A DNA stretch of 64,000 nt from Mesodorylaimus sp. YZB2_4 (Eukaryota > Nematoda > Enoplea > Dorylaimida > Dorylaimidae): assembly GCA_030248295.1 (NCBI GenBank), contig JASANH010001333.1:594604-658603 (forward strand). The letters run 5' to 3'. Positions within the stretch are counted from its first letter, which is position 1; every line of letters starts with the position of its first letter. The notes below the pieces were generated by a model. That model saw only the letters and a list, made by a program, of their open reading frames with translations. It was not told where the DNA came from and searched no databases. The position numbers were made by a program, and so were the translations under genes. Of the stretch, positions 34,493 through 64,000 are shown in pieces.

Positions 34493-35044
34493 CTATTTCG
34501 TATCTTCCCGTTTCTTTTCAATACTCTTCACATAGTCGATCACCTTGTTCCAAAGCCCGATCGGATCTGTTACTCGAGGAATCTAAAATGGAAATCCTTC
34601 TTCTGCAAATAGTCTGCAGCTGGAACAGTGCATTGACACTACTGTTTCCCTCGAATACCCCCCCCCCCCCCCCCCCCACCCACAGTAGCATCCGATCGGG
34701 ATTGGCTCTCCCGAATCTGATAAAAAATGGTCGGGATTGAATGTTGAGATATTTTAGAAGAGGAAGCCGGAGAAAATTTGGGGATTTGTATGCTAATTAA
34801 TGACTGATTCTACGCTTTTTTGGGTGAATGACACTAAAAATTATCCGAGGAAGTAGTTTTTGACTTTATATTTGCTGGCTACTTATGAGTGATAATAAAC
34901 ACCCACTTGATAATTCTGTGCTCCATATGCCCCGCCATAAACGCCCAACAAAAACCAAAGTGTTCTCGACTGCATCAATCTCGTCACACCCAAGGCGCTT
35001 AGGATGGACAGAGCACCTTTCGAAGCAAGTGCAGGTGCAGGCAT
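34493..35044 (-). CDS. STMP1: STMP1-like mitochondrial microprotein (DUF4535), paralogue A
   Basis: Two exons (35044-34907 and 34582-34493) join in phase 0 across GTGGGT...TTTTAG to give 75 residues. Residues 1-27 form a presequence-like extension (MPAPALASKGALSILSALGV). A single membrane segment WFLLGVYGGAYGAQNY follows, then the family signature NYQ-IPR, and then a charged amphipathic tail (IGLWNKVIDYVKSIEKK). The small-residue membrane helix followed by AQNYxIP and a lysine-rich tail is the pattern of short transmembrane mitochondrial protein 1. That family lies in the inner mitochondrial membrane and has been linked to respiratory-chain function. The intron holds a run of 20 C (34658-34677). 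The 3' exon lies 222 bp or more from paralogue B, on the same strand. AATAG directly follows a TTTTAG acceptor-like site 16 bases before the ATG. Confidence 0.7.
34658..34677 (+). repeat. Run of 20 C in the intron of STMP1-like paralogue A
   Basis: Uninterrupted poly-C (poly-G on the gene strand), one of several in the window (others near 3665, 8104, 41347, 41998 and 42050). Confidence 0.9.
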
Positions 35045-35265
35045 AATTGCTTCTATTCTAAAACCATAAAATTCATGTATCGAACTGGCAAATACAAAAA
35101 AGAAACAAGCTAATCTGCTTTTGTAAAATCAATAAGCACTAGTCGTTAGCAAACTTTACTGCACTTCGACAATGCACCATGTACAAACGGTATCAAAAAT
35201 ATTTCATTTTTACAAATTCATAGAATCACAATGATACCGATTGATAAAGCATGCCAACCCGTTTT

Positions 35266-37940
35266 TTATGATTTCTCATTTTTCTTTTCGTAGTTGCTGA
35301 TGTAAGTGCGTGCTTTCTCCCACAATGACACTGGATCGAGGATGCGCGGGATCTGAAAGTAGACAGGGCTGTGACCGCGAGTACGGCTGAGGTGGTGCTT
35401 GGATAGCGACTGATTAAGAGAGGGTTTCTGAGACCGACCGATTTTTTTGACCCCTTTTTTTATACGCTCAATCGAAAGTACTCAAAAAACTGATTGTCTT
35501 GGCGGAAGTAAAAGTTTTTTAAATGCCCATATACGGAAATATAGCAAATTTTAGGTGAAAAGTGGTCACTTTTGGTCAAACAATCATAACTTGCTTGTTT
35601 TTTATGTCCAAAACAATTTAAAAAAAAGAAATGACTGCTGCGGTCCAAGGAATCCCAATCTTTTTTCAAAATTACCCTAGCTATAACCATTCATGAGATA
35701 TTTAACAAAAACCGTCCATAATCAGGCACATAATCGATTATGGGCAAATTATTAAAACCGTTCAACCCTGTTTTTTCCCTGAAATAGCCTAGGGCCGCTA
35801 CATCACAAAACAGCTCGAAATTTCGCCCTACGACCAGATTATTGTGCACATGTGGGATAACTAAACCCCATTTAGGCAATTTTAGCCAAATAATTTTAGC
35901 TGTTAGTCAGGTACGCTGATCATAATAGCCCATCTTGAAAACCCTAGAAAGAGCTTCCAAATGCTTTTTCCCCGCCAGAGCTCGTTGATTTGCGCTCTAG
36001 ATATTGAAGAAAACTCGAATTCAGAAGGAGTTCCTGCAGTACGCACCTTTTGAATCTCCCGCCCACGACGCTTATGACATTGGAGTGGTTTCGGCTGCTT
36101 ACTCTGGGAATCGCCAGTTGATTCATACCAGCGTTGCCAGATGCAGCTAGAATCCGCTAGATCTAGCGGATTTTTTGTCCGACAGCGGGAAAAACAGCGG
36201 ATTGAGTGCTTTAGCGGACTTTGCAGCTAATTTTGGGTTTTTCAGCGGATTCTAGCGGATTTGTGCCAATCTATGTTCGAGTAGCCTATGCGGGAAGATT
36301 TTTTTAACAGCTCGCGCATTTTTCTGCGACTTTTGAGACAGTTTTGTCCGTGCGTTGAGGTCTGAAGGGTCGGGGTTGACAAGGGATGGGGTAGGCAACA
36401 CAATAATTTCGACTATACTGTAGGCCTACGATTTTGAATAAAAGACCGTAATTTACAACCAATTCATAGTTAGAGTTCAGAGTGCTCAGTCGGTATTACA
36501 GTAGGCCTAACCACAGTCCAGCCTTTGGCACGAAGTGAGGGTCTCAAAAGCGGCCCCCCTCCGTATTCCGTCTCCCCTTGTTTGGCATGAATAGAAATTT
36601 TCGTTTTTCCCTCTTCCCTGGTCTTCGACCTCCAGCCTGGTATAAACGATCTTTGGAATATGTAGTTGATGGTACAGCATCTGAGCGTGTATGAGTAAAC
36701 GTTTCCTCATACGTCGTTAATTTGCTGTATTCCATGTTTTATTTGCTAAAATAGCTCAGTTTTGCGACAAACTTTTAGCGAATTTTTTAGCGGATTTTTT
36801 AAGATATACAGCGAATTTTTAGCGGATTTCCAGGTCCCTTGCAGCGAGTTTTCAATTTTGCATCTGGCAACGCTGATTCATACCTCACACCAAACTTAAA
36901 AAAAAACATAAATTTTAGGCGGCACGCGGCGGGAAATTCAAAAGGTGCGCGCTGCAGGAACTCCTTCTGAATTTGATTTTTCTTCAATATCTCGGGTAAA
37001 TTTCAATAAATTTTGACGAAGAAAAAACCATTTGAAGTTTTTAAAGGGCTTCAAGATAGGCTATCACTGATTAGTGCACCTGATCAACAGCGAAAATTAT
37101 TGATCAGTTTTGGCTAAAACTGCCTGAATGGGGTTCAGTTATCTAACATGCGCACAATAATCTGGTCGTAGGGCGCAATTTCGAGCTGTTTTGTGATACA
37201 GTGGCCCTTGGCTACGATTTTAGTGAAAAAATCAGGGCTGGATTGTTTTAATAATTCGCCCATAGGGGGCCTCGTCGAGTCTCTCATAAACCCTCTCTTA
37301 AAGTGGCAGCTCGCACTGGTCATCCTGGCTAAGCAGTAGAGCAGTGCCTCTTCAAAAAGTCAACCTTATACAGCAACCCAGGCTGGCAGTGTGCCCATAA
37401 ATGGACACGTGACTCATCCAGTTAGGTTGATGTTTCACCGGCCTGACGAGTGTGCATTTGAGCCTCCCCGCCCGTCGAGGTTAATTGACTATAACTCATT
37501 TCTAAGCCTTTCCTTGGCCCTGTGAACACAATCTTATATTCGAGGATGCTGGACACACGCACAAAAAACGGTAGGTATGGCCATATTGTAACTACTTGCA
37601 TGCCATTTTTAGCATGCATGTGTGATCGGTTTTGAGATTTCACGAATCCCCTCTTTTCTAACCACACTACAGGCCAGACAGAAAACAAGACTTGACGGTC
37701 GAAGGGTGCCAGACAGCGCATCAGGGTTTCGCAACCAAAATTAATGAGTGGCTTCGCCAAACAAGCTTATCTCTGTCGGGACCGCAAAATATATTTTCTT
37801 TTTCCATACAAAAACGATAAAAAGAAAACAAAGTAAATTGACTCAAAATTTACCCCTTGGCTTACCTCGTAATTTTGAGCAGCGTATGCTCCAGCGTATA
37901 AACCAGCCGCAAAGAACAAAGCTCTCGATAAAATTTGCAT
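35266..37940 (-). CDS. STMP1: STMP1-like mitochondrial microprotein (DUF4535), paralogue B
   Basis: Exon 1 (37940-37866; MQILSRALFFAAGLYAGAYA, then AQNYE) and exon 2 (35352-35266; IPRILDPVSLWEKARTYISN, then YEKKNEKS) join in phase 0 across GTAAGC...TTTCAG. They give 53 residues, close to the 47 residues typical of the family. The intron sits at exactly the same codon boundary (NYE|IPR) as in paralogue A (NYQ|IPR), which supports both models and a tandem duplication. The 2.5-kb intron contains a large foldback element with a TIR transposon inside it. The protein lacks the N-terminal extension of paralogue A. Role by family: a single-pass inner mitochondrial membrane microprotein. Confidence 0.75.
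35740..37265. repeat. Foldback element (about 330-bp arms) in the intron of paralogue B
   Basis: The left arm (about 35740-36068) and right arm (about 36930-37265) are inverted copies: AATTATTAAAACCGTT / AATTATTAAAACAATC (right arm inverted), CCTACGACCAGATTATTGTG / CACAATAATCTGGTCGTAGG, and CAGAAGGAGTTCCTGCAG / CTGCAGGAACTCCTTCTG. They surround a short loop that was later interrupted by the TIR element at 36130-36874. Arm words (ATATCTCG, GGCGGGAAATTCAAAAGG, CGCGC) also occur in the foldback copies at 5.2 and 7.5 kb, so these are related. Confidence 0.75.
36130..36874. mobile_element. TIR element with 16-bp perfect ends and 10-bp target duplication
   Basis: The ends are AGCGTTGCCAGATGCA and its exact complement. 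The flanks carry the direct duplication GATTCATACC (36120-36129 and 36875-36884). Both subterminal regions are packed with AGCGGATTT-like words in the same orientation. The 745-bp body has no transposase. A 9-11 bp duplication is typical of Mutator-like elements. It was inserted in the loop of the surrounding foldback element, so it is the younger of the two. Confidence 0.85.
37266..37865. other. Rest of the intron of STMP1-like paralogue B
   Basis: No further exon or repeat recognised. Confidence 0.4.
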
Positions 37941-38260
37941 TTTTTACGTCGATCTGATAAGGTGCAAAAACTGGGGAAAAAATTGGTTATTACTTTACGG
38001 ACACGCAAAGTACCAGCTCCGCAGATATTCTTCCATCGAAACGAAAATCTGCCTCCCCGTACTGTGCCACTCGCACAAGCAAGTTCCCGCATCCTTATTG
38101 CAAATAAGCGCCAAATTTGAAATTTTGTTAGGTGACTTTGCTCATAGTGATGGGCCCGCGGTTACACTCTACGTTCAGCGTAAATCATTTAACGGACACA
38201 AACTTACACAAGTGTGTCAAAAAAGAACGTTAAAAAAATAAGACGCGATTGAAAAAGTGT

Positions 38261-38333
38261 CGAGCCTGGCAGGAGTCGAACCTGCAATCTCCTGATCCGT
38301 AGTCAGGCGCGTTATCCATTGCGCCACAGGCCC
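38261..38333 (-). tRNA. tRNA-Arg-ACG: tRNA-Arg (anticodon ACG)
   Basis: Folds fully: a 7-bp acceptor GGGCCTG/CAGGCTC (one G-T pair), a D arm GCGCAATGGATAACGC, an anticodon stem CCTGA/TCAGG with loop CTACGGA (ACG), and a T arm GCAGGTTCGACTCCTGC with discriminator G. The A and B boxes are canonical and a TTTTT terminator follows within about eight bases on the minus strand. 73 nt, no intron. In contrast to the many tRNA relics nearby, this one appears functional. The A34 would be edited to inosine to read CGN codons. Confidence 0.95.
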
Positions 38334-38849
38334 GTAACCGAAATGCTTGCTGTAAGCAATAAATTTCAGTGCCAAAGAGGCAATAACTGATAGTGAATGT
38401 AATTTCACACTTTTCCCGTGACTAATGCAACATGAGTTTTTAGCACACAGGGCTCGCTGAACGAGTAAGCGGGGAAGGGTAAGTAGTGCATGGTGCTTGT
38501 TCTGCCAGCTGGCAAGACTTCGTAACCCATTTCTGTTCTGGTCAACAGGCGATCTGAGTGCCTCGGTCGTGGATCCAACGCGGGACACATTGATCGTTTC
38601 TGCTCTTCATCCGACTGCCCATTAATATATGCTGCTTACACAGACACTATGGCAGGCATGCTTACTCTTTGCTTAGTTTAGTCAGGGGTCTGGGGACATA
38701 TATAAGGCTATCCCTCAAATTCAGGATTGCATAGTCAGCACGCCTGAACTTTCAACAGCTCCTGGGGCCAAACTGTTACACCATCAAGTCTGTAAGTTGA
38801 CTTCTTCTCCCACTGCGTTTCATTATGGCCACTCCACTCGCATGAAATT
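38334..38849. other. Non-coding; strong TATA-like motif
   Basis: CATATATAAGG at 38698 (+ strand) is a good TATA-box match, but no coding start was identified downstream. Nothing else seen. Confidence 0.25.
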
Positions 38850-46629: not shown

Positions 46630-49600
46630 TTACTCCCCCTCATCCTCCAGCACGGATCCACTGTAAGACAAATCCCAGTAATGTTCCACGTGGTGTTTCT
46701 GGAACAATTCCCTGGCCATTTTTTCCATTGGACAAGCTTTGAATTTGATTTCACCAAATGCACGTTTTTTCACTTCGCCCTAAAAAAACATTTTTTTTCT
46801 GTAAAACTCGATTCAGAAATCTAAAACAAAGACAAAGTTTTACCTCCCAAACCAAAACGCAAGAATTCCTTGGTTTCTCCGGCTGACCACTGGCCACTGC
46901 ATCCGCTCTCGCCTTTGCTTCCTTGGCCGTCTCTTCTTCCCATTTAATTCTTCTCAACATCAAATTCTTAAAAAACTTTTGCGCCTTGGCACCTGAAAAA
47001 TCAGACCATCGAGTAACGCAAAAAATTCACTGATCCAGGTTCAATACCCGCTCAGGGCAACAGTTTTTGATTATGTGACTTTCACAAAGTCATTGGCCTT
47101 AGACACTGGAAAAGTTTAAAAAAACGAGTAATTAGATTCATAGAAATGTGGGTTCGAGACCCCCTCGGGCCAACAGTTTTTGATTGCGCATCTAAACACC
47201 AAAAAACACCAACAAAGTCAGACAATCTAGTAACATCAAAAATTAGTAATGCGGGTTCGACACCCTCTCAGGGCAACAGTTTTTGATCATGCATCTTACA
47301 CCAACTTAGCACCTGAAACATTACACCCAGTGTACTAGCTGACTCTGTAGAAAAGTCGGACATCAAAAATATAGTGATGCAGGATCGATACCCCTCAGGG
47401 CAACAGTTTTTGATCATGCATCTAACACTAGAAACACCAGGAAAGTAGGACTAGCGAGTAAGATCAGAAATTAAGTAACGTTGGTTCGAAACCCCCTTAG
47501 GCCAACAGTTTTTGATTATGTCTTACCTCCTTCGACCACCACCACATTAACGTCCTTATGCAAAACCACGATGCCAGTCAAATATAATTGTTTCGCATTC
47601 ATTTCGACTTTGAATCTTTTCGATGGATTCGATAAATCTGCTACGCGATATACTGAAACTTGTACCGATTGCAAATGAGCTCCTGGAATGCCAATGCCAG
47701 CACTTTCTTTCAATTTTTTCACTTTCTTCTCCGATTTTTGAGTCGGCGTCAATTTTCTGGCAGCGTTTGCTTCTTCGTGTTTTTTCAATCGTCTAGCCAT
47801 TTGGTCACGAACGTGCGCCTCCATTTTCGTCGGATCCATAATAGCTTGCGAGCCCAGCACACGCATCAGGTTGCTGATTTTTACTAAAAATAAGACAGGT
47901 AAAACAATTTTGCTATGTTTTAGATACATCCCATATCCTGGGCTAACCAAGCCTGGCTGGCGTGTGGAAAGGAGTGTGGCCGTATCAGGCCAGCATCGAC
48001 CGACCCGACCCTAGGCCTGATCCCGGTCCGATCCTGGGTCTGGATCGGCCCGATACCGATCCGGCCGATCCGCTTCAGAAATACAAGATTGGTCTACAGA
48101 CATACAGATACAGATAATATGCTGATTTTTAAGAAAAAACGGGACTTTCTCATCAGAGTACGCCATCCTTAATCATTTTCCAGCAGAGAAAGCGGGAAGA
48201 ATTTTAGTGGCCGATCTGGCTGATCCAGCAGTCGAATAGGATCGGTCGATGCTGGGTATCAAGCAAGTCTTCCGAATATACCTGCGGCTGAAACATGGGC
48301 ATGAAGGCCTAACACATCCCAGCCAGGGGAGATCCATTACTCCCACTCGTCAAGCTCTACCAGGCGCCATGGTAAACTGGATTTTCGATTTTCAGACTCA
48401 AGGGACTCAGTCATTTGTGAAAATTTGATCACTATCGATAGACAGTGGATAGTGATCGATAGCGACAGATAGTGATCGCTATCGAGTAATATTTTCGATC
48501 AATATCTTCAGTGATCAATATCATTTGTGATCACTATCGATCGATATCTTCCGTGATCACAATCTTCAGTGATCACTATCTTTAGTGATCAGTAAAGATC
48601 TTCAGTGCACTATCTTTAGTGATCACAATCTTCAGTGATCGCTATCTTCAGTGATCACTATCTTTAGTGATCATTGAAGATCATTAGTGATCACTGAAGA
48701 TCATTAGTGATCACTGAAGATCATTAGTGATCACTGAAGATCATTAGTGATCACTATCGATCAATATTTTCAACTATTATCGATCGATATCTTAAGTGAT
48801 CAGTTGACTTTGATTTCGATGTCACTATCGATATGGATAGATAGTGATGCCTAAGGCGTGTGCTGGACTGACCATTAAAGGATCTGGGCCCCTGCAAAAG
48901 CTTTTTTACTCATAATATCTGAGCACTGTGAAGTTTTCCATTAAAGTTTTCAACGTTTCGCAACTTTTCTACATTTTAAACTTTTAAACAACCTTAGAAA
49001 TTTTTTCCCCAGCAAAAAACCTTCTTTCTAACTCAATTTTTTTTCTGACCGTTGTTTAGCATACGACCGAACCCTTGGTTGGCTGAGGGGTCCAGGCAGG
49101 TTTTTGTATCCTTGGCGTTAAAAACTTTCCACCCCAACGAGGCTCAACACGAGGTTTTCCTTTGATAATTTTCCCAGTTTGAAACATCAAAATGCAACCT
49201 TTCACGGTTCTCCTTGATTTTAGCTCGAAGATCGTCATTTACGCTGTTTTTCCCAACTTTTTCGGACACTACCCAAATTCTTCGACATTCCCCGCTTTTC
49301 CAGACTTCAATTAAAATTTCTCAGCCGGAGCCTTGGGATCCTACTGCATGCAATCGTGTGTGCTTTAAACATAGAGAGGAGGCCTCACGTCGGTCATGGT
49401 GCCCTGGTTTCAAGTGTCTCACAGGCACTGGACTTCGGTCCCACGTGAAAATCTTCCCTCTCATATTTCTTCATTTCGAGATGTGACTTACACAGGGCAC
49501 GGCCACGCCAAAAGTCCGGGCAGTGGTAAGGATTTTCTTGGCTTCCCTAGGGGGGGGGGGGGGGAATGGTCAAACCCTTTTTTTCAAAATTTTAACATTA

Positions 49601-51060
49601 CAAAATTGACAATTTTTCTAGGCAGGAGGGCCCCAGTTTCAGAAAGTGCGTTTTTTAGAAATAAAATGTCCATCTTTCTGAGTGACCATATTCGGCCAAA
49701 CTTACCCTTCGGTTCAGGCGGTGGTTCTAATCCCAATCTGATCTTTTCTTGTTCTTCTCGTTGCATTTCTTTTCGATTTTGTCTTCTTAATTTTTTTCGT
49801 TCTTTTTTTGTCAAAAATACTTTCAAATATTTTTTCTGTCCCGATTCGCCTGGTGCTCGTAATTGAATGGGATGCTCGACCAAATTTGTGATCGTCTGCG
49901 TCAAATCCGACTCGGAAATAGTATCGTCGTAAGTTTTATTATTGAGTATGACCGAATCCCACCATTCCACATTGGGAACAGCGAAATCGGACTAAAAAAA
50001 TTAATTAATTAACAAAAATTAATAAACAATTGAAAACTTACTAATTCCGCCGCCCTCGGAGCAACCATAGCCAATTTGACAGCTGATGAAATTCCAGTTT
50101 TTTTCGCGACTGATTGAATATCCTGTTGTAATTTTTCCAATCTGGTTTTTGCTCTCATTCGATTTGCCAATTGTTCGAATTCGCCTTTATCGTGAAATTT
50201 TAGTTGCCTTTTTTGTCTTATAGCGCCTTTGGCAACGACTCGAGGATCGAAAAAATGAGCAGCTTCAGTCGCTTTTTCTTCCACAGCTTGGGCCGTTTCT
50301 TTGACAACTTTTTTGAATTGAGCTCGTTTTTCAGCTCGAATATTAGCTTTTAATGTTGGTTCGCGATGAATCAGACGAATTTCACGTCCAGTCGTATCGA
50401 TCGTTCGACCTGCCGAATCCAAAATTAATGGAGTTGGTTGACCGGGTTGACGTTCGTGCGATTGATAATTGACCGTGGTGGACATATTTTTCATACGATT
50501 TGCTATACGTTCCTTTAAATCTTCAGTTCGTTGCGTTTTTTCCATGGCTTCTTGAAGAAATCTTTCCGCTTGATCTGGAGCAATTTTTTTAGGCGGAAAC
50601 ATCTGTTGTACCTAAGCAGAAAAATCGCAGAAATTGTCAAAAGTTATTAAGAAAAATGCGGTTCAGGGAAAAAAGGAAATTCTTTCTTTAAAAGAACAAA
50701 AAACTTGCAGAATTTTTACAAATTCACCTCTTTTTTTCGTTGTTCAATCATTCTTTGCGCCTGTTCCATAATTTCACGAATTTTAGGATCCATTGGTGCT
50801 GGTCCAATTTTTGTTTTATCACCGCTGGATTTCTTTTCCGATGATGAACCTTCTAATTTAATCGATTTTGCTGATGATTTTCCGTCGTCTGCGTCTTCGG
50901 CATCTTGGAACTAGAAAAATTAGGTGTCTTTTGACAAAATAACAAAATAAAACTTTAGAAAGAAATTGAAAACAATGTTTACAACTGATCATGAGAAAAA
51001 GAAAAAATTTACTCGTGATCTCCGCTTTCTGCCGGAGGATTGCTCTTCAACTGATGGCAT
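46630..51060 (-). CDS. PRPF3: U4/U6 small nuclear ribonucleoprotein Prp3 (PRPF3), seven exons
   Basis: Seven phase-compatible exons: 51060-51013, 50910-50728, 50611-50042, 49991-49706, 47883-47527, 46992-46844 and 46779-46630. Together they encode 580 residues. Hallmarks in order: an acidic/basic N terminus; [15 protein letters not shown]; the central PRP3 domain with [91 protein letters not shown] and [16 protein letters not shown]; and the C-terminal DUF1115 domain with [37 protein letters not shown], and [10 protein letters not shown] through HYWDL. Prp3 binds the U4/U6 duplex in the tri-snRNP and is needed for spliceosome assembly. The N-terminal PWI domain of the 683-residue human protein appears to be absent. 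Intron 4 (49705-47884) and intron 5 (47526-46993) carry unusual repeats. Confidence 0.95.
47030..47515 (+). repeat. Five-copy array with tRNA B-box-like cores in PRPF3 intron 5
   Basis: Units of about 110 bp each contain GGTTCGANNCC or a close variant (47039, 47153, 47246, 47374, 47482) followed by CTCAGGGCAACAGTTTTTGA and ATCATGCATCTAACACC-like sequence. No A box or tRNA fold accompanies them. The array lies antisense to PRPF3 transcription. Confidence 0.75.
48000..48260. repeat. GATCCGATCC-type repeat, copy in PRPF3 intron 4
   Basis: CGACCCGACCCTAGGCCTGA, GGTCCGATCCTGGG, CCGATCCGCTTCAGAAATAC and, at the end, GGATCGGTCGATGCTGGGTA. It closely matches 52545-52780 (CGATCCGACCCTAAGCCTGG, CTGATCCGCTTCAAAA, ATCGGTCGATGATGCGCG). 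Confidence 0.6.
48261..48370 (+). repeat. Repeat family D fragment in PRPF3 intron 4
   Basis: CAAGCAAGTCTTCCGAATAT, ACCTGCGGCTGAAACATG, CCCAGCCAGGGGAGATCC and CTACCAGGCGCC match the family seen at 39660, 43715 and 58320. Confidence 0.55.
48420..48850. repeat. Palindrome-rich GATCACT satellite in PRPF3 intron 4
   Basis: A dense array of GATCACTATCGATAGTGATC-type palindromes, including four near-exact copies of a 20-bp unit GATCATTAGTGATCACTGAA (about 48666-48745). Most units are self-complementary. Confidence 0.8.
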
Positions 51061-58987: not shown

Positions 58988-60875
58988 TCCACCGCTACCA
59001 TGAGCTGCTCCCCCGCTAACATGAGCAGCTCCACCGCTAACATAAGCAGCTCCACCGCTAACATGAGCAGCTCCACCGCTAACATGAGCAGCTCCACCGC
59101 TAACATGAGCAGCTCCACCGCTAACATGAGCAGCTCCACCGCTAACATGAGCAGCTCCACCGCTAACATGAGCTGCTCCCCGCTAACATGAGCTGCTCCC
59201 CCGCTAACATGAGCAGCTCCACCGCTAACATGAGCAGCTCCCCGCTAACATGAGCAGCTCCACCGCTAACATGAGCTGCTCCCCGCTAACATGAGCTGCT
59301 CCCCCGCTAACATGAGCAGCTCCACCGCTAACATGAGCAGCTCCACCGCTAACATGAGCAGCTCCCCCGCTAACATGAGCAGCTCCACCGCTAACATGAG
59401 CTGCTCCCCGCTAACATGAGCTGCTCCCCCGCTAACATGAGCAGCTCCCCCGCTAACATGAGCAGCTCCCCCGCTAACATGAGCTGCTCCCCGCTAACAT
59501 GAGCTGCTCCCCGCTAACATGAGCTGCTCCCCCGCTAACATGAGCTGCTCCCCGCTAACATGAGCTGCTCCCCGCTAACATGAGCAGCTCCCCGCTAACA
59601 TGAGCTGCTCCCCGCTAACATGAGCAGCTCCACCGCTAACATGAGCAGCTCCCCCGCTAACATGAGCAGCTCCCCGCTAACATGAGCAGCTCCCCGCTAA
59701 CATGAGCTGCTCCCCGCTAACATGAGCTGCTCCCCCGCTAACATGAGCAGCTCCCCGCTAACATGAGCAGCTCCCCGCTAACATGAGCAGCTCCCCGCTA
59801 ACATGAGCTGCTCCCCGCTAACATGAGCTGCTCCCCCGCTAACATGAGCAGCTCCCCGCTAACATGAGCTGCTCCCCCGCTAACATGAGCAGCTACCCGC
59901 TAATATTAGCAGCTCCCCCGCTAACATGAGCAGCTACCCGCTAATATTAGCAGCTCCCCCGCTAACATGAGCAGCTTCCCGCTAAAATGAGCAGCTCCCC
60001 CGCTAACATGAGCAGCTCCCCCGCTAACATGAGCAGCTCCCCGCTAACATGAGCAGCTCCCCGCTAACATGAGCAGCTCCCCCAACATGAGCTGCTCCCC
60101 GCTAACATGAGCTGCTCCCCGCTAACATGAGCAGCTCCCCCGCTAACATGAGCAGCTCCCCGCTAACATGAGCAGCTCCCCGCTAACATGAGCTGCTCCC
60201 CGCTAACATGAGCTGCTCCCCCGCTAACATGAGCAGCTCCCCGCTAACATGAGCTGCTCCCCCGCTAACATGAGCTGCTCCCCGCTAACATGAGCTGCTC
60301 CCCCGCTAACATGAGCAGCTCCCCGCTAACATGAGCAGCTCCCCGCTAACATGAGCAGCTCCCCGCTAACATGAGCAGCTCCCCGCTAACATGAGCTGCT
60401 CCCCGCTAACATGAGCTGCTCCCCCGCTAACATGAGCAGCTCCCCGCTAACATGAGCTGCTCCCCGCTAACATGAGCATCTCACCGCTAAACTGAGCTGC
60501 TCCCCGCTAACATGCTCAGCTCCCCCGCTAACATGAGCAGCTCCCCCGCTAACATGAGCAGCTCCACCGCTAACATGAGCTGCTCCCCGCTAACATGAGC
60601 TGCTCCCCCGCTAACATGAGCAGCTCCACCGCTAACATGAGCAGCTCCACCGCTACCATGAGCTGCTCCCCCGCTAACATGAGCAGCTCCCCCGCTAACA
60701 TGAGCAGCTCCACCGCTACCATGAGCTGCTCCCCCGCTAACATGAGCAGCTCCCCCGCTAACATGAGCAGCTCCACCGCTACCATGAGCAGCTCCACCGC
60801 TACCATGAGCTGCTCCCCCGCTAACATGAGCAGCTCCACCGCTACCATGAGCTGCTTTCCCGCTATCATGAGCGG
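58988..60875. repeat. 20/21-bp minisatellite, about 90 copies
   Basis: Unit CCGCTAACATGAGCAGCTCC with an optional extra A or C (21 bp) or none (20 bp). The palindromic core GAGC-N-GCTC has either A or T at its centre. 21-bp units keep a frame (MSSSTAN repeats on plus, LLMLAVE on minus) only at the two ends; 20-bp units in the middle break it. Variant units (GCTACC, GCTATC, AATATTAG) cluster at the edges and in the middle. Confidence 0.95.
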
Positions 60876-61061
60876 GGTTGTAGGCTTATAAGTGCAACAT
60901 GGACCATGAAGTAAAGTCCCCTAAGGTACAAAGTGAACGCCCTGACTGGATTTGTAGGAAACTGGCATGGTGTGTGCTCTCACATTTGCCGCTCACCTGA
61001 TAAAATGGAAAGGTCCCCACAAAGTAGGAGCTACTCCTGCTACCAAAGTGCTGCTCTGCCA

Positions 61062-62127: not shown

Positions 62128-64000
62128 CACGTCAAAAGATCGCGGGAAAAAGGTCGCACGACAAAAGGTCGCAACAAAAAGATCGCAAAGGCAAGAAGGT
62201 CGCACGACAAAAGATCGCAACAAAAAGATCGCAAAGGCAAGAAGGTCGCACGACAAAAGATCGCAACTAAAAAGATCGCATATATAAATTTTTAAGCAAA
62301 TTAGAGCACTGCGTTAAAAAAATTTTTTTTCACTCTCATAACATGTCAAAAATGGCCAGAAATACCATAATTTTACATTTTACACCCACTGTCATGAAAC
62401 GTGGAACATAATACGAGTAGGTTGCATTAAAAACATATTTTAGAAGTTGTAATTATGAGCGACACCGCGCAAATAATCCCTGATATCTCTGTTATCATAA
62501 TCATTTACGATTCTTTCGATTCTTTCGCGCAATCCCGATACTTTCGTCGGCCTTGAGGCGGTTGCTGGCCAGCGACATACTGTTCGATCTTGGTTTCATT
62601 CAGACTTTGCTCTTTCTTCAACGAATCGATGAATTTGAAAATCGATGGATGATGGGCGCCAACTAGCTCAGAAAAACCTCGATGCCACCCCTCCACCGAA
62701 TTATTAGTCTTCGCAATTCCATTAATAACCGATTCACGACAGTTCCAAAGTGGTATTGGAAACAATGGGCCACGTCTTATACCTCTGCGGTTTGGTCTGC
62801 CGATCCAAGTGTCCTCGAAATAATCGACGACTGGTTGTGCCTCTGCTGGCAACAATTCGGCCAATTGCTCAAACGAATCCACCACCGCAGGAATCGGTAC
62901 GAAAGATAATGCGGGCAGCATTCTCATTTGCAATCCAAAGTCCGGATCATTCTCATAGCGATGTTGTAGGCCAGCAGCTTGGATTTTGCGCCAAATGCTT
63001 TGCGAAAAATGAAAAAAGCATCCACGCCTCTCCGTCTGAGGAAATTCAGAAGCGAATGCATTGATCGCCGCTTGCTCGAAATCAGTCATAATGGAAGTTG
63101 GATTCAGATTTGCATTCAGCTCCTTCAACTCGGCCAATAACTTGGTGTACGTAACTTCGGTCTTGTTTGGCAAGAGAGCGAAGACTGATGGAATGACATT
63201 GTTGTAATGAACGCCATGAATGGTATACAACTGTTCGAAAAGCGGTGGTGCTGTCTTGAAAGTACCATCTGCGTACCAATGAGGGCTGTGCGATAGCGAT
63301 TGCAAATTCCTCTCCGTAGAAAAAATCAAAATTAGATTTGGACCTTCGCCGCTGTCACGCAATAAAAACTGTTGGCCACCTTCGGTTTGTTGAAATTCGG
63401 GAGGAATGATCAAATCTTCCAGCGATCGAGGATTTGGAAGCACACCGCCGAGTACTCCCCGTCGTGTTCTCTGCACTGTACGTTTCATACATTGAACTGG
63501 CGGAAGTTGGCCTTGTACAGCAGCTGACAACCCAGCTGTTTTTCACCAGTTTTCACAGCTATCTTAGCTGGATCGGGGGCATGATTATGCTCGCCTGGCT
63601 CCTTCGACACCTGTCCGTTCTCAGTTTGCATTCGGGATCGGCAGTTTCCCCTGTTGTTTTTGAAATTCACGCACTTCCAATCGATTTTGTTTCCGCTTTC
63701 CCGCTCCTTTCCGAATAAGTGCCCGCGATAACAAAGCTGATCTTTCCCTTTCTGACTTTTTGCGAATTCTAAAGGCATCTTGCAGCAAAAAGAGAATCGC
63801 AAACTAACTCAAAGAAACAGCTGAAATGGCTAAAACCTTCATCGACAGCTAAATTTATAGGGGGACATAAATGAGCTGTCATCACCTTCATTGTTTTTCA
63901 TGGTTTTGTTTCTTGCGACCTTTTATACCATGCGACCCTTTTGTCCTTGCGATCTTTTTAGTTGCGATCTTTTGTCGTGCGACCTTTTTACTGCGATATT
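62128..64000 (-). mobile_element. MULE transposon with repeat-filled terminal inverted repeats (right end beyond window)
   Basis: The left terminus (62128-62285) is made of AAAAGATCGCAACAAAAAGA and GGTCGCACGACAAAAG words. The right side (63918-64000) holds the same words inverted (TTGCGATCTTTTTAGTTGCG, TCTTTTGTCGTGCGACC) and continues past the end of the window. Between them lies the transposase gene on the minus strand. The outer right boundary and the target duplication cannot be seen. Confidence 0.85.
62505..63778 (-). CDS. MULE transposase with FLYWCH-type zinc finger (frame-disrupted)
   Basis: The first frame starts at ATG 63778 (MPLEFAKSQKGKDQLCYRGH) and contains a FLYWCH-like finger: DWKCVNF, GNCRSRM and the closing GEHNHAPDP. 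The second frame (to 62505) contains the MULE/DDE domain: first Asp in HWYADGTFKTAPPLFEQLY, second Asp in SIMTDFEQAAINAF, the CxxH of GCFFHFSQSIW, and the probable Glu in NNSVEGWHRGF. The two frames overlap around 63485-63530 and are out of register. The usual linker of some 30 residues before LPPVQCMKRTVQR is also missing. A small deletion with frameshift is the simplest reading; a very short intron is less likely. It would move the surrounding element by cut and paste if intact. Confidence 0.85.

Follow-up and report, generated by a model that had tools for sequence, protein, structure and literature searches.

Two tandem DUF4535/STMP1 genes, probably old duplicates, in a nematode-like genome

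The minus strand of the 64,000-nucleotide stretch of DNA analysed here (the window) carries two small genes, gene B followed by gene A, which are very probably two functional DUF4535/STMP1 paralogues that arose when a two-exon gene was duplicated in tandem long ago in a nematode. The family itself is already known; what is new is the presence of two tandem members of it. The initial annotation had proposed two two-exon genes of 53 (B) and 75 (A) codons, and their exon coordinates and GT-AG introns were reproduced exactly, as was the distance of 221 bp between the stop of B and the start of A. The spliced products are 53 and 75 amino acids long, respectively.

37866-37940, minus strand: gene B exon 1, 25 codons, MQILSRALFFAAGLYAGAYAAQNYE (spliced translation)
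35353-37865, minus strand: gene B intron, 2513 bp, GTAAGC...TTTCAG, phase 0
35266-35352, minus strand: gene B exon 2, 28 codons and TAA (spliced translation; PF15054 match of the spliced protein)
34907-35044, minus strand: gene A exon 1, 46 codons, including an N-terminal extension
34583-34906, minus strand: gene A intron, 324 bp, GTGGGT...TTTTAG, phase 0, at the same codon boundary as in gene B
34493-34582, minus strand: gene A exon 2, 29 codons and TAG (spliced translation; PF15054 match of the spliced protein)

Both phase 0 introns interrupt the same codon boundary (NYE/IPR in B and NYQ/IPR in A), as had been noted from the sequence at the outset. The donor of gene A, GTGGGT, is less canonical than the GTAAGC of gene B. 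A run of 20 C at 34658-34677 (G on the gene strand), a likely sequencing trouble spot, lies within the gene A intron. The gene B intron houses transposon-like elements.

35414-37301, no strand assigned: long inverted-repeat element of 1.9 kb with TTAA at both outer ends, inside the gene B intron
36129-36875, no strand assigned: nested element with 17-nt perfect terminal repeats, inside the 35414-37301 element

The inner element is flanked by an 8-bp direct repeat, ATTCATAC, at 36121-36128 and 36876-36883, and is presumably hAT-like. These nested elements account for most of the length difference between the gene B intron and its counterpart in gene A, which is about eight times shorter.

Joining the exons carried both proteins over the curated threshold of the family. 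Searched with the PF15054 profile (DUF4535/STMP1; Pfam curated gathering cut-off of 28.3 bits), spliced B scored 42.7 bits (E 4.4e-11, profile positions 3-41 of 45) and spliced A scored 41.3 bits (E 1.2e-10, profile positions 2-41 of 45), and the family assignment made in the initial annotation thus held. Exon 1 alone gave 26.1 bits for B and 21.3 bits for A, both below the cut-off, while exon 2 alone gave no match for either gene and neither did any of the three shuffled controls, the only ones run. The gain upon joining supports the splice reading, and the exon reading of both genes is well beyond chance. When the 145-Mb assembly was searched in six frames, unspliced, with the same profile and five candidates were scored, exon 1 of gene B was the sole match at E <= 0.001, with 26.7 bits and thus below the cut-off. 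In both predicted proteins a short run of hydrophobic residues is followed by an AQNYxIPR hinge and a tail rich in lysine. The best 17-residue hydropathy mean is 1.28 in B, and the maximum of A, 1.37, falls in its N-terminal extension; both values are modest. The PF15054 scores support the membership of A and B in the DUF4535/STMP1 family, whose founding member is human STMP1. Searches of solved structures with both proteins gave nothing significant (one unrelated match at E 0.88 and otherwise none at E up to 10), and NCBIfam, searched at E up to 1, yielded no match either. In pattern scans, none of 344 pattern stretches on bacterial and archaeal contigs and none of 31 on viral contigs was confirmed as a relative.

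When protein A was searched against the 145-Mb assembly at E up to 10, four matches were obtained, corresponding to the four exons of A and B. No third STMP1 copy was seen in the assembly, although an exon-wise search of this kind could miss a strongly diverged or finely split one. The two proteins are identical at 26 of 49 residues in an ungapped core (E 2e-21) that leaves out A residues 1-25 and 75 and B residues 1-4. MAFFT counted 29 identities in 53 aligned codons but broke up the N-terminus in an odd way, and the ungapped core was preferred to its alignment. Together with the common intron and the adjacent head-to-tail arrangement, the core identity supports the proposal, already made in the initial annotation, that A and B are tandem paralogues.

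Both reading frames are intact, and nucleotide differences between the copies fall at 19, 14 and 37 of the 49 first, second and third codon positions, respectively. The third-position excess is present in each exon (6, 5 and 15 of 21; 13, 9 and 22 of 28) and was reached in none of 20000 permutations. The NG86 method gave a dN of about 0.46, dS not being computable. This codon-position pattern leads us to read A and B as old copies kept as protein, and purifying selection on both is shown.

The genome looks like that of a nematode, as judged from 133 Col_cuticle_N and 27 TTR-52 matches in the assembly, both families being typical of nematodes. Chitin_bind_4 gave no match in the assembly, and the control was also silent, making this result uninformative. 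Elsewhere in the window, exons of the PRP3 splicing factor (PF08572), separated by a short AT-rich intron, are found at 49584-50611, a MULE transposase domain (PF10551) at 62505-63542, and repetitive open frames coding for an AAHGSGG-type repeat at 60487-60920, all on the minus strand. The assembly contains 15 COX1 matches. A COX1-like stretch outside the window, at positions 253316-254668 of a 488-kb contig, has further COX1 pieces in its neighbourhood. When the sequence there was read under the invertebrate mitochondrial code, the final 511 codons of the segment read were open; the locus reflects either an insertion of mitochondrial DNA into the nuclear genome or a join made in assembly.

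Several features in and around the gap between the two genes bear on how they may be transcribed.

38259-38334, minus strand: tRNA-Arg (ACG), upstream of gene B
37954-37955, minus strand: weaker acceptor-like AG (CACCTTATCAG), 13 nt before the gene B ATG
35045-35265, minus strand: 221-bp gap between B and A, with no AATAAA and six ATGs
35208 and 35160, minus strand: variant poly(A) hexamers in the gap, AATGAA and AGTAAA, respectively
35058-35059, minus strand: acceptor-like AG (TTTTATGGTTTTAG), 13 nt before the gene A ATG; candidate trans- or cis-splice acceptor

Most likely, each gene would yield its own mature monocistronic mRNA; a polycistronic B-A transcript is possible. We give about an even chance to the two genes being ordinary tandem duplicates, each with its own promoter. 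This is a common layout for such duplicates, and it agrees with the failure of all leader searches described below to find a spliced-leader gene. The tRNA-Arg bounds the promoter space of gene B, provided that transcription units do not overlap, and 318 bp would be left for a promoter of its own if transcription starts after the tRNA. For gene A, however, the 221 bp would be a tight fit for the 3' UTR and poly(A) site of B followed by the promoter and 5' UTR of A.

A nematode operon is a more tentative reading. It would consist of one precursor starting between the tRNA-Arg and gene B; cleavage and the trans-splicing of a spliced leader onto the AG at 35059/35058 would free the A mRNA from it, both proteins being made together. 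Since the genome is nematode-like and this phylum has operons and trans-splicing, the idea is reasonable. Nematode operons are well documented, and the 221-bp gap compares with the 89 to 838 bp, from poly(A) site to acceptor, given for putative operons of several species in excerpts of a published survey (PMC1657053). The likeness extends to the head-to-tail order, the short gap and a candidate acceptor AG shortly ahead of the second gene's ATG; the difference lies in the leader RNA and the precursor, which for A and B are only postulated. Scored with an acceptor matrix built from three introns only, those of A and B included, the AG before gene A was equalled or beaten within 60 nt at 52 of the window's 2362 ATGs, a figure that includes the ATG of A itself. 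The AG before gene B was matched or beaten at 486 of these ATGs and is therefore nothing special. Splicing at 35059/35058 would drop the ATGs at 35076 and 35067, making the one at 35044 the first AUG. The predicted fold of the gap is better than that of most shuffled versions (z -2.37, equalled by 3 of 200), and the continued adjacency of so old a pair would also fit an operon.

Against the operon stand the leader searches, which are weak for divergent leaders. An RF00198 search, a weak test in that it scored just 50 of its 31302 first-look candidates, found no spliced leader, and no leader gene was found with SL1-like or SL2-like patterns or with SL1 allowing up to 3 mismatches. A pattern combining leader, donor and Sm site gave 23 matches (one site counted twice, and two near-identical pairs) versus 35 for the reversed control, and no leader family was recognised among them. 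The Ur-type motif, TAYYTT, is likewise missing near the acceptor-like AG; the single copy in the gap lies at 35201, about 140 nt upstream. Spliced leaders have been reported for Trichinella spiralis, Trichuris muris and Prionchulus punctatus, according to excerpts of one study (PMC7986045). Our guess is that a lack of canonical SL1 would be compatible with a dorylaimian nematode.

An in-frame stop two codons upstream of the gene B ATG, whose context (AAAAATG) looks strong, pins down where this gene starts. Gene A has extra N-terminal residues in its reading frame, as the initial annotation had stated, but their proposed likeness to a mitochondrial presequence is not supported beyond composition. 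Residues 1-25 contain two K/R and no D/E, and although acidic residues are absent, the helical moment of this segment was equalled or exceeded in 2870 of 5000 shuffles, leaving its amphipathicity within chance. It is possible, if somewhat unlikely, that gene A begins at Met24, in which case the extension would be 5' UTR and the product an ordinary 52-residue STMP1. Met24 is two residues ahead of the common SR core and near the position of gene B Met1, which is four residues ahead of it; the 52-residue form also scores slightly higher on PF15054 (42.6 versus 41.3 bits). The frame above Met1 is open for another 28 codons, so the openness of the extension proves little in favour of Met1. Nevertheless, Met1 has the better start context, with A at position -3 as opposed to T at Met24, and the best acceptor-like AG sits 13 nt before Met1.

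The known system that best parallels the linked A/B pair is Drosophila sloth1/sloth2 (human SMIM4 and C12orf73/Brawnin), likewise a pair of neighbouring paralogues, whose products, like those predicted for A and B, are small mitochondrial proteins with a single helix. They belong to another family and share one mRNA with a 5-nt gap, and the main text of the sloth1/sloth2 paper, in the sections available, does not mention STMP1 or DUF4535 (PMC9681215). A single bicistronic mRNA of this type, with A translated by leaky scanning or reinitiation, is highly improbable for the present pair despite that precedent of tandem mitochondrial microprotein paralogues: B and A are separated by 221 nt rather than a few, the six ATGs in between count against leaky scanning, and the gene B start context looks strong while that of sloth1 is described as non-optimal (PMC9681215).

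We infer that both genes are expressed. By homology with vertebrate STMP1, the proteins would probably reside in a mitochondrial membrane, where an accessory role for such small proteins may lie in the respiratory chain (complexes III/IV) or in mitochondrial dynamics. STMP1/Mm47 (C7orf73, 1810058I24Rik) resembles A and B in its PF15054 match, its size class and its hydrophobic stretch followed by a basic tail; it differs from the present case in that here there are two tandem copies, A with an N-terminal extension. STMP1 has mostly been studied as a single vertebrate microprotein with several proposed roles. One report, in excerpt, places it in both mitochondrial membranes, inner as well as outer, supposes that it interacts with complexes III and IV, and calls its conservation one that reaches from human to nematode (PMC9932084); a review, likewise in excerpt, links it to the fission of mitochondria and to the activity of complex IV (PMC12455275). 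On its role and exact membrane, these published accounts, as excerpted, are at odds. A tandem STMP1 pair appears in none of the titles and abstract openings of the STMP1 literature surveyed, a scope that leaves room for one in print.

A further proposal, which we regard as improbable, is that the two diverged STMP1 paralogues make up an operon and that their products would be co-expressed hetero-oligomer partners on the respiratory chain, the extension of A giving it a different orientation or partner. In Drosophila, the two sloth peptides are both required, with an effect on complex III assembly, and the ratio between them is proposed to matter, as stated in the available sections of that paper (PMC9681215). 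If A and B are an operon, stoichiometry would seem to matter here as well, and the hetero-oligomer proposal, if true, would add to sloth1/2 a second, independent example of mitochondrial microprotein paralogues that stay linked because of dosage. Small two-exon genes such as A and B are easily overlooked in annotation. As two diverged and conserved STMP1 copies in one genome, they would offer a natural separation of the roles proposed for STMP1.
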